Below, one piece after another: positions 2,865 to 7,305 of a DNA stretch of 24,580 nt. Source of the stretch: a virus. Numbering within the stretch: the stretch's first letter is position 1; each line of letters starts with the position of its first letter. Made by a program: the position numbers and the translations under genes. The notes under the pieces were generated by a model, which searched no databases, had not been told where the DNA came from, and saw nothing but the letters and a program-made list of their open reading frames with translations. The stretch covers positions 1 to 24,580 of the IMG/VR virus record IMGVR_UViG_3300030107_003694. One strand, 5' to 3'.

Positions 2865-2903
2865 ATCGTAGTCTCCTGTTTATTTTAATTAATTGAATTC
2901 TTT

Positions 2904-2957
2904 GGGGCGAAGCACCGTTACCTTATTTACGTTTTAAGTGGTCGTCATTGTCGCCCC
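2904..2957 (-). ncRNA. Hairpin closed by GGGGCGA/TCGCCCC
   Basis: A perfect 7-bp GC-rich inverted repeat (2904-2910 with 2951-2957) encloses about 40 nt. In an AT-rich genome a 6/7 GC stem is notable. On the minus-strand transcript it is the last structure before the leader of the gene at 2864. No U-tract follows, so it does not look like an intrinsic terminator. Confidence 0.4.
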
Positions 2958-3018
2958 CGTGCACATAGACCCTACCCATAGAGTTAAAGAAACTGAGTTT
3001 CCCTCTACGGTTGGTCAT
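2923..3018 (-). CDS. Possible 31-residue microprotein
   Basis: An ORF inside the otherwise non-coding spacer. It starts at ATG after a purine-rich AGGAAGG about 9-10 nt upstream, begins MTNRRGKLSFFNSMGR and ends in HLKRK. Its base composition is more GC-rich than its neighbours. The same bases form hairpins (2968-3016 and part of 2904-2957), so the sequence may be constrained as RNA rather than coding. This is a low-confidence call. Confidence 0.3.
   Translation of the reverse strand: MTNRRGKLSFFNSMGRVYVHGGDNDDHLKRK
2968..3016 (-). ncRNA. Nested hairpin in the 2865-3218 spacer
   Basis: Nested complementary pairs: GACC 2968-2971 with GGTC 3013-3016, CC 2976-2977 with GG 3009-3010, TAGAG 2979-2983 with CTCTA 3003-3007, and GAAAC 2989-2993 with GTTTC 2997-3001, with a 3-nt apical loop. 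Four stacked helices in 49 nt are more than a random AT-rich spacer would usually show. They overlap the possible 31-codon ORF, so function is undecided. Confidence 0.4.
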
Positions 3019-3085
3019 AAGTTTTTTCCTTCCTGCCGCCAGTCTTTTGTATAAACTACCTGGTAGACTTCACCATTGAATGAAT

Positions 3086-3147
3086 TAGGGGAATATCGAG
3101 TGTGAGTAGGTTGTTGAAACCTCGCTAGGTGAGTAGCTATTCCCCTA
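3086..3147 (-). ncRNA. Three-way-junction-like structured element
   Basis: A perfect 10-bp closing stem (TAGGGGAATA 3086-3095 with TATTCCCCTA 3138-3147) encloses two smaller hairpins. Read on the minus strand these are GCTA/TAGC around CTCACC, and AGGTT/AACCT around a 5-nt loop. The 62-nt shape recalls a three-way junction. It is not a tRNA: there is no T-arm and no TTCRA loop. Neither of the two hairpins flanking the junction matches a hammerhead core. Confidence 0.5.
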
Positions 3148-3153
3148 TTTGGA

Positions 3154-3214
3154 GGGAGAAGCATAAAAAGTCAAAAGGAAGGGCTATGTGAACCCAAAAA
3201 GACTAACTTCTCCC
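3154..3214 (-). ncRNA. Hairpin closed by GGGAGAAG/CTTCTCCC
   Basis: A perfect 8-bp stem (3154-3161 with 3207-3214) encloses AGTC/GACT and GGG/CCC pairs, giving one long interrupted hairpin. It begins 4 nt after the stop codon of the leftward gene at 3219. It could protect the 3' end of that mRNA or be the first domain of a longer non-coding RNA that includes the elements at 3086 and 2968. Confidence 0.45.
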
Positions 3215-3218
3215 AATA

Positions 3219-3464
3219 TTAATCTATTTTAATTCCTTTGTACCATGTCTCAATATCTAATACCTTGACATAGTCATCATTTTCATATTTTTCATACCTT
3301 ACTATTGATTTTAAATTCTTACCTTCATGAGTATGGTATACTATTAATGAGTCAATAGAATTTCTACCATATATTTCAACCCATTTTTCAACAGGTGTCT
3401 TTTCAGGTGTATCAATAGGTGAGGAGGCTATTATAAATCCTATAAATATAATTAAATATTTCAT
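3219..3464 (-). CDS. Small exported protein with signal peptide
   Basis: An 81-residue protein starting MKYLIIFIGFIIASSP, which is a short, typical signal peptide or N-terminal anchor with likely cleavage after about residue 16. No lipobox Cys is present. The ATG at 3464 follows GAGGAGG by 7 nt and is preferred to the upstream TTG. The mature part is charged and contains tyrosines and tryptophans (WVEIYGRNSIDSLIVYHTHEG). Location at the membrane or periplasm is inferred from the signal. Function is unknown; a superinfection-exclusion role is possible for such genes but is not shown here. Confidence 0.7.
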   Translation of the reverse strand: MKYLIIFIGFIIASSPIDTPEKTPVEKWVEIYGRNSIDSLIVYHTHEGKNLKSIVRYEKYENDDYVKVLDIETWYKGIKID

Positions 3465-3466
3465 AA

Positions 3467-3697
3467 TCAATCCTCCTCTGGAAATATACTGTCTACCATA
3501 ATAGATAAGCTTAATTTATATTTAAACTCATCAGTCTTAGCTTTTAATTTATCCAAGATAATTGGCTTATTAGACACAAATGTAATGTGAACATCTGCTG
3601 GATCTTCCATATTTAGAGTAACATGCTTTATTTTATTTAATCCATAATAGTTTCGCATATCTTCTAAGGCTTGAGATATTTTATATATATCACTCAT
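3467..3697 (-). CDS. Hypothetical protein
   Basis: A 76-residue protein. GGAGG lies 8 nt before the ATG, inside the end of the upstream gene, and stop and start share a base (TAATG). It has helix, strand (KHVTLNMEDPADVHITFVSN), helix and strand segments, suggesting a small alpha/beta fold. No family is recognised. Confidence 0.7.
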   Translation of the reverse strand: MSDIYKISQALEDMRNYYGLNKIKHVTLNMEDPADVHITFVSNKPIILDKLKAKTDEFKYKLSLSIMVDSIFPEED

Positions 3698-3858
3698 TAT
3701 TTGCCTCCTTTATAAGAAGTAGGCCAGCTCTGTTTATGAACAACTATAGGTTTACTCTCTTTCACCCATTCCAATATTTCTTTTGCAATATTATCAGATG
3801 CAGTGTCTGAATCAATAGTTACTTTTGACACCAAATCTCTAAATTTTACTGATTTCAT
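3697..3858 (-). CDS. Small 53-residue hypothetical protein
   Basis: An ORF of 53 codons beginning MKSVKFRDLVSKVTID and ending SYKGGK. GGAG lies 8 nt before the ATG, and its last codons supply the GGAGG of the next gene, so the two are translationally coupled. It has no cysteine or membrane segment. It is the first gene after the long structured spacer at 3890-4298. Function unknown. Confidence 0.65.
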   Translation of the reverse strand: MKSVKFRDLVSKVTIDSDTASDNIAKEILEWVKESKPIVVHKQSWPTSYKGGK

Positions 3859-3889: not shown

Positions 3890-4298
3890 TAAGATGCTTG
3901 GTGAAGGACTTGAGATACCTTCAGAATGTCTAGTTGCTACGGGCTTTCGCCTCACGATACATACAATAATCACTGTCGTAACTTGTCTTACATAAGCTTT
4001 GCATCACTTATGCATCAACAAAGGACACTATATCCATATTGTATCTTACACTGCTCGCAACAAGCATAGTATAAGTTAGTACCGTAACCAAATCTCTTTA
4101 GTTAATTAGTTTCAACACTCGCCATACTTAAGTTAGTTACACTCTTACACCTCTATCATTTAATAGACATGTCAGTCAACACCGAAAGTATGCTGATGTA
4201 GGCCTTTGGAAACAAGCCGTTCACATCATTACCAATTAAGTATTACATAAGCACACAAGGAGCTACCTTGTAATATGCCCTTGAAATACAACATCTTA
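3890..4298 (-). ncRNA. Candidate large structured non-coding RNA
   Basis: There is no coding sequence of useful length here on either strand, yet the block is bounded by a perfect 7-bp complementary pair: TAAGATG 3890-3896 and CATCTTA 4292-4298. Inside are successive local hairpins: 3902-3907/3918-3923 (6 bp), GGC-GAAA-GCC on the minus strand at 3942-3951 (GNRA loop), 3991-3996/4007-4012 (6 bp), 4045-4075 (11 bp with a 2-nt bulge), 4153-4166, 4194-4199/4223-4228 with a second helix inside, and 4255-4260/4266-4271 (6 bp). One pair in the 4045-4075 stem is U-G on the minus strand but C-A on the plus strand, so the minus transcript fits better. The block starts at the stop codon of the gene at 4296. 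No known RNA class was recognised. Confidence 0.45.
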
Positions 4299-4490
4299 AT
4301 TACAGTTTTCCTTGCAATATCTCTGCAATGTTTTAAATCTTTTATTCTTTTCATCTAATGTTTGTTTACACGCTATATAGTCTGCTTTCCAGCCATTAGC
4401 ACGCTTAAATTGATTACGATACTTATTAATCATAATCCACAATAACATTACAAGAATACCTATCACTGAAAATAGTATTTCATAAATCAT
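4296..4490 (-). CDS. Small single-span membrane protein
   Basis: A 64-residue protein with GGAGGTGTT directly before the ATG and an ATGA overlap with the upstream gene. Residues 3-21 form one membrane helix (IYEILFSVIGILVMLLWIM). A basic segment (KYRNQFKRANGWK) and a helical tail with three cysteines follow. N-terminal anchor plus charged helix recalls inner-membrane spanins, but at this length and away from the lysis genes that is only a possibility. The basic residues after the helix suggest the tail is cytoplasmic. Confidence 0.7.
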   Translation of the reverse strand: MIYEILFSVIGILVMLLWIMINKYRNQFKRANGWKADYIACKQTLDEKNKRFKTLQRYCKENCN

Positions 4491-6618: not shown

Positions 6619-7305
6619 ATGAGTTATTCATCTAGACGTCCAAATAGGGATTTAATACCTCTAAATAGGGATTTAATAGAATTTTTAGATAGAGCTGATA
6701 AGAAAAGTTCTAAGATAGAGCATATGGAGCGCATGCTTTCAGAGCAAGAGCCTAATCTTGAACAAAGAAGAGCTGCGGACGCTTCTAGGGCTCAGTGGAA
6801 AAGAGACACACAACTTCAGGCACAAAGAGTTATTGATGCTGATGAGGCAGCTAGACAGCAAAAAGCTAGAGAAATTATAGAACGGAGGCGTTTCGAAAAA
6901 AGAAGAAACGATTTCTTAATGAGCGCCCTTTTCCCTCTATCTAAGATTGGAGAGCTTATGAGTTCTTTTTTACCAAGTTTTACCGATCTTCCAGAAGAAT
7001 ACGAAGGTATGAGTATGGAAGAAATTGAAGCAGCTCTAAGAGAAAAAGAGCTAAGATCTCCTGCAGGTAGTAGAGTGGGCGAAGCAATGGGTAGAATGGC
7101 AAGAGGAGCAGGAGGCGGTATGGGAGAAGCTATAGGCGAGCTTAATCCTTTTGGGGTTAGGGAAAATCCTGTCGAGTTAGACCCTATTGAGGTTACGCCT
7201 GAACCAGAACAAGCAATACCTAGAGGCGCTTCCGAAAAAAGAGAAAGGTCTGTAGGGAGGGATTTACTAGATCTTTTCCTTGGCATGCCACCAGGAGCTT
7301 ATTAA
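6619..7305 (+). CDS. Putative virion/ejection protein with coiled coil
   Basis: A 228-residue protein with AAGGAG before its ATG. Residues 1-20 hold an imperfect repeat (NRDLIPLNRDLI). Residues 25-100 are a long, highly charged Arg/Glu/Gln helix, followed by a hydrophobic segment (FLMSALFPLSKIGELMSSFL). A glycine-rich stretch (MGRMARGAGGGMGEAIGEL) follows, and then a proline/glutamate-rich tail ending in GMPPGAY. No enzyme motif is present. The layout, with charged helix, amphipathic segment and flexible tail, fits internal or ejected virion proteins, but this is inference. Its stop overlaps the next ATG (TAATG). Confidence 0.65.
   Translation: MSYSSRRPNRDLIPLNRDLIEFLDRADKKSSKIEHMERMLSEQEPNLEQRRAADASRAQWKRDTQLQAQRVIDADEAARQQKAREIIERRRFEKRRNDFLMSALFPLSKIGELMSSFLPSFTDLPEEYEGMSMEEIEAALREKELRSPAGSRVGEAMGRMARGAGGGMGEAIGELNPFGVRENPVELDPIEVTPEPEQAIPRGASEKRERSVGRDLLDLFLGMPPGAY

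Follow-up and report, generated by a model that had tools for sequence, protein, structure and literature searches.

The window, 24,580 bases long, is the first part of a 28,226-base virus record and belongs to a tailed phage for which a P22-like portal, an SU10-like capsid protein and a small terminase were recognised; its large terminase is <30% identical to those of the best-covered isolated phages. Between two leftward genes of this phage lies a block that the first-pass annotation had described as lacking any usable ORF and as closed by complementary 7-mers (TAAGATG/CATCTTA). Both descriptions were borne out. No conserved ORF crosses the block in homologues, in all of which stop-free frames inside the RNA stay at or below 70 codons and differ from homologue to homologue, and the 7-mers are present and lengthen to a 9-bp helix, P1, inside which UGGU/ACCA stacks in the window RNA. 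The block's first three bases, TAA, double as the stop codon that ends the upstream gene. Folding against shuffled controls placed the structure on the minus strand, which gave a minimum free energy of -123.2 kcal/mol; shuffled sequences averaged -99.2 (z = -4.77), and none of 100 folded as well. The plus strand folded at the shuffled mean (z = -0.08). Refolding of ten family members, the window included and some of them near-duplicates, gave RNA-strand z-scores between -3.6 and -7.1, and none of the 40 shuffles folded as well.

Table 1 Features of the structured RNA and its neighbouring genes in the window
Feature	Position	Strand	Description
Whole structured RNA	3890..4298	minus	409 nt, 5' end at 4298; fold z-score, homologues in 14 records
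Upstream gene (g4296)	4296..4490	minus	64 aa, membrane-anchor-like; orthologue just upstream of GOLLD in G054/L131
Downstream gene (g3697)	3697..3858	minus	53 aa; orthologue comes first after GOLLD in L131 and also lies downstream of it in L017
P1 5' strand	4290..4298	minus	UAAGAUGUU; pairs with 3890-3898
P1 3' strand	3890..3898	minus	AGCAUCUUA; pairs with 4290-4298
P2 variable arm	4240..4289	minus	long hairpin, apical loop UAGCU
P4 hairpin	4194..4228	minus	UGAUGUG/UACAUCA; compensatory changes in 3/7 pairs
P5 long hairpin	4123..4192	minus	base CAUACUU/AAGUAUG, apical loop AAAU; 6/7 basal pairs changed on both sides
P6 hairpin	4086..4103	minus	AACUAAA/UUUGGUU; loop contains pseudoknot strand GAGAU
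Pseudoknot strand 1	4092..4096	minus	GAGAU; lineage-specific complementarity
P7 hairpin	4046..4074	minus	UUAUACU/AGUGUAA; homologue alignment
P8, closing a four-way junction with hairpins P9, P10 and P11	3961..4044	minus	21/32 pairs with two-sided changes
P12	3939..3955	minus	GUGAGGC-GAAA-GCCCGU; CCC/GGG in place of GGC/GCC in L130
P13 3' hairpin	3902..3923	minus	UGAAGG-UAUCUCAAGU-CCUUCA; homologue alignment
Pseudoknot strand 2	3912..3916	minus	AUCUC; in the loop of the 3' hairpin (P13)

Covariance-model (CM), pattern and BLAST searches placed the same RNA in 14 phage records, all of them metagenomic virus contigs: the window, 3300030117_004591, 3300030333_003626, 3300030450_002556, 3300030106_004934, 3300030333_005641, 3300030090_004250, 3300010151_003467, 3300030333_003511, 3300030329_003551, 3300030117_003836, 3300030385_001331, 3300009413_000126 and 3300009620_000129. 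BLAST of 80 contigs with this terminase yielded two copies besides that of the window; three DNA patterns built on conserved stretches, searches by neighbour genes and two covariance models (R1 and R2) brought the total to 14. Complete copies measure 392-494 nt (451 nt at locus L037); the copy in 3300030385_001331 is truncated on its 5' side or joined to foreign DNA. Four of six further candidate loci in the late homologue search proved to be chance matches, and a marginal match of L044 to model R2 (E about 2) was dropped as it sits in coding-looking sequence. Among 50,697 isolated phage genomes, BLASTN found no match for the window RNA or the L086 RNA and only 32-nt chance matches for the L037 RNA, and a pattern scan of 84,980 species genomes found no match; the carriers are uncultured, probably marine, phages. 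The 8-kb contig L130 is probably chimeric; its copy of the new RNA, around 7000-7300, has a bacterial zinc-type dehydrogenase-like gene joined to the 5' side. Record G010 (54.5 kb) holds two slightly different copies near its two ends (L091 1500-1643 and L092 523-666) with different genes downstream; either the RNA is truly duplicated or the assembly has merged strain variants.

What is conserved in this RNA is structure, not sequence, and many compensatory changes separate the homologues. P1, whose strands, like those of P6 and the pseudoknot, were picked by hand, occurs as seven different strand pairs (for example, GAUGUU/AGCAUC, UUGCGG/CCGCAA, ACAUUG/CAAUGU and UGUGUG/CACACA) that are 100% paired versus 51% when permuted. 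Across the 3' domain (P8-P11, P12 and P13; 13 distinct sequences), CM alignments, which are biased toward the model structure, have two-sided changes in 25 of 44 pairs and 97.9% of cells paired, with a covariation score of 0.573 versus 0.227 for shuffled alignments and 0.06-0.112 for slid structures; alignments of fewer sequences give the same result. The middle domain (P4-P7), aligned with the L007 and L130 RNAs excluded as too divergent or truncated, has two-sided changes in 16 of 34 pairs, 97.8% pairing and a score of 0.613 versus 0.271 shuffled. None of the outcomes named in advance as refuting a structured RNA, namely a folding energy in the shuffled range, a lack of compensation or a conserved ORF, occurred. 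The first-pass annotation had also singled out a GNRA-looped stem, of which the stem (GGC-GAAA-GCC) is real but the GAAA loop is unconserved (CAAAA in L037, UUCCA in L086).

Beyond the local helices, the loops of P6 and P13 are joined by a pseudoknot, which was judged by lineage-by-lineage complementarity because a MAFFT alignment puts L092 one column out of register. It exists in four sequence versions (GAGAU/AUCUC, GGGAUU/AAUCCC, UUAUGUAU/AUACAUAA and UAACUA/UAGUUA), whose longest complements are 5, 6, 8 and 6 bp within lineages and at most 4 bp between lineages. The P2 arm evolves differently: between the window and L054, which are otherwise 97% identical, its sequence has been swapped out and a long hairpin kept. 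Several lineages have self-complementary sequence in the P2 apical loop (AGCU in the window, UGAUCA in L092 and L128, GAUC in L007), and a search for an intramolecular partner for this loop found none that was consistent.

The new RNA matches no family in Rfam 15 at the gathering level, the window copy included, and cmscan of five members at E<=10 listed nothing but neighbouring tRNAs, fragments of manA and families matching by chance, with no GOLLD and no ROOL. The GOLLD model (RF02032) failed to match, at E<=10, G000 or any searched record that carries the new RNA, whereas the same model scores 113-173 bits in six sister records, and the new-RNA model run on GOLLD with filters off likewise found no match, so that models in both directions reject GOLLD as the same family. 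The two nevertheless share several traits: both are phage-encoded, large, ornate and closed multi-helix RNAs; both have a tRNA(CAU) neighbour in several records; and in both the loop of the 3' hairpin can read UAAUCUCA (the new RNA in L037, GOLLD in L114-L118). A likeness in the pattern of conservation is less clear-cut: the 3' domain of the new RNA is best conserved and its P2 arm replaced, but P4-P7 are conserved too. They differ in the order of helices, in the covarying pseudoknot by which the new RNA ties its P6 loop to the 3' hairpin, and in length, the new RNA being about half as long as GOLLD, members of which often exceed 800 nt (PMC12286853). GOLLD forms a 14-mer cage and rises during lysis, with its function unknown (PMC12286853), and an ICP1 transcript of about 800 nt has been likened to it (PMC7567579).

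Like the new RNA, ROOL (RF03087) is a large phage RNA often found near tRNAs, and it has no known function (PMC12286853); a ROOL family search, run without a positive-control match, was empty, and this phage clade yielded no ROOL. A weak resemblance links the 3' domain to manA (RF01745), with a best score of 19.1 bits (E 0.025, L086) set against a gathering score of 55.2 bits, and other weak matches fall at homologous positions in L037 (E 2.8) and L092 (E 5.3). The likeness covers a multi-branched junction, in which a hairpin loop reads UGUAGUG/UGUGGUG, and a final hairpin of the form GGUA...AAUCC with an 11-nt loop; manA differs in being compact (~210 nt) in viral contigs and in having no 5' domain. 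Scores far below gathering and an empty reverse search of nine manA loci with models R1 and R2 speak against membership, and the resemblance is no more than a lead. The manA RNAs of viral contigs (L093-L096 and L098-L102) themselves look like standalone genes of ~210 nt; by eye, they have TTGACA/TATAAT-like elements upstream, and several have a GC hairpin and T-run downstream, making them a poor fit to the cis-regulatory label in Rfam.

The layout had been likened from the outset to GOLLD and ROOL without recognition of a specific motif, and this holds in an unexpected form: neither model matches, yet the RNA lies at the position that GOLLD takes in sister phages. Among the sister phages encoding the same terminase, GOLLD scores above the cut-off of 150 bits in G012 (167 bits) and G009 (155 bits) and below it in G004 (143), G001 (137) and G008 (113), all three with E 1e-32 or better. 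In G054, GOLLD (173 bits) lies between orthologues of the very genes that flank the new RNA in the window. The G054 order at L131, g4487 - g4296 - GOLLD - tRNA-like - g3697 - g3467, is collinear with that of the window, g4487 - g4296 - new RNA - g3697 - g3467, at amino acid identities of 71%, 48%, 53% and 93%, respectively. At L017/L116, GOLLD again lies between the g4487 and g3697 orthologues, preceded by a tRNA(CAU) that in L116 is near-identical by eye to the tRNA preceding the new RNA in L037, L084 and L085. A tRNA abuts the new RNA on its 5' side in these three and on its 3' side in L122; none lies beside it in the window record. Among the 11 near-complete records (48 kb or more) tried with both models, four carry GOLLD (G001, G008, G009 and G012), five the new RNA (G010, G014, G018, G050 and G051), two neither (G003 and G017) and none both, the search in G050 and G051 covering 10-13 kb around the slot; in G054 (54.8 kb), the search with the new model covered 5.2 kb around the slot. 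At this position the new RNA is interchanged with GOLLD.

A tRNA-like sequence also directly follows GOLLD at L131 2655-2731 and L116 about 1956-2034; it has a clear acceptor and T arm and an odd middle, and scores weakly with the tRNA model in G004 (20.9 bits). Sister phages contain other strongly structured, ORF-poor blocks on the minus strand (L044 5412-5945, L021 4288-4748, L058 5326-5666, L067 2835-3227 and L073 1-447), which fold at z -3 to -7 (20 shuffles) and match neither GOLLD nor the new RNA. The L044 block follows what by eye is a tRNA(CAU)-like gene and precedes an orthologue of the window gene downstream of the RNA. These blocks are possibly further families in the same slot; the present finding suggests that the GOLLD slot may hold more RNA families, with L044, L021, L058 and L067 as candidates.

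Could the stems simply reflect AT-rich intergenic DNA folding by chance, or an assembly artefact? Many of them had been counted by eye in such DNA, but strand-specific z-scores in all homologues, dozens of compensatory changes and occurrence in 14 separate contigs make this explanation vanishingly improbable, and chance folding is already refuted by the covariation. It is also very unlikely that the block is a cis-acting leader or riboswitch-like element controlling the downstream 53-aa ORF. Its place in a co-directional gene string, ~30 nt upstream of the RBS and start codon of that ORF, would suit a leader, as would the weak likeness of its 3' domain to manA, which is cis-regulatory in Rfam. 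However, no alternative terminator is present, a closed terminal helix and a length of 400-490 nt are unusual for a leader, and GOLLD, a known standalone RNA, takes the same place before the same downstream gene. Flanking genes, moreover, differ among many homologues, the downstream gene in most of them, with a tRNA there instead in L122, which favours a standalone gene, probably not a leader.

Kinship with GOLLD is harder to dismiss, and we regard it as unlikely, if less so than a leader, that the block is a very divergent, shortened true GOLLD homologue outside the reach of the Rfam model. The two share a locus and a tRNA neighbour; in each, a variable 5' arm seems to accompany better conservation toward the 3' end; and the final hairpin of each can have UAAUCUCA in its loop. 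That loop match, however, is partly coincidental because its UCUC part is the covarying pseudoknot strand in the new family, and inspection by eye of five GOLLDs gave no consistent partner for their 3' loop. Helix layouts also differ, and models fail to match in either direction, even at E 10 for the GOLLD model and with filters off for the new one.

The best reading is instead that these RNAs, large, structured and standalone, form a new, previously uncatalogued family of a kind already known from phages. We consider it likely that the block is the gene for a large non-coding RNA outside Rfam 15 that is GOLLD's positional counterpart and, as a free RNA particle, does GOLLD's job. The candidate RNA would be transcribed leftward together with the neighbouring genes; as no promoter or terminator above chance was found near it, it may be processed from the operon mRNA. 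Its ends would probably be released by processing, since a tRNA(CAU) gene abuts the RNA 5' or 3' in some relatives, and by tRNA processing where tRNAs abut. The product is predicted to form one closed domain comprising P1, P2, P4-P7, the four-way junction P8-P11, P12 and P13, with the P13 loop clamped to the P6 loop by the pseudoknot. A homo-oligomer is plausible because P2 loops are self-complementary in some lineages and have no consistent internal partner, an arrangement that would suit a kissing contact between copies. As a free particle, the RNA most likely does whatever GOLLD does for these phages and probably replaces it functionally; because the new RNA cannot be aligned with GOLLD, the argument for a shared function is one from position alone. 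A more specific scenario, possible but on balance doubtful, is that an unrelated RNA displaced GOLLD by homologous exchange and builds its own multimeric particle, of different fold, for the same phage need, making the two convergent, interchangeable 'RNA cage' modules.

Few natural RNAs that assemble into RNA-only cages are as large as GOLLD and ROOL, and to our knowledge nobody can say what job either performs. The unexpected part of the present finding is the one-for-one interchange, in near-collinear phages, of GOLLD with a family about half its length at the same address, which offers a natural swap experiment on what such RNAs do. Since the swap occurs between orthologous genes, whether different ornate RNAs do the same job becomes directly testable by exchange and complementation, and a 409-nt RNA is easier to make and image than GOLLD.

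The window holds a candidate for a second, smaller conserved RNA, a non-coding module on the minus strand at about 2890-3020, within the ORF-less gap 2865-3219. The whole block folds at a z-score of only -1.34 and has no Rfam match at gathering. The module reads CACGGGGRCGAC...GACCACTCA...GTAAC...TTCGYCCCAAAGAATT, and its 7-bp G/C helix has two-sided changes in four pairs across eight phages, GOLLD-bearing sisters among them.
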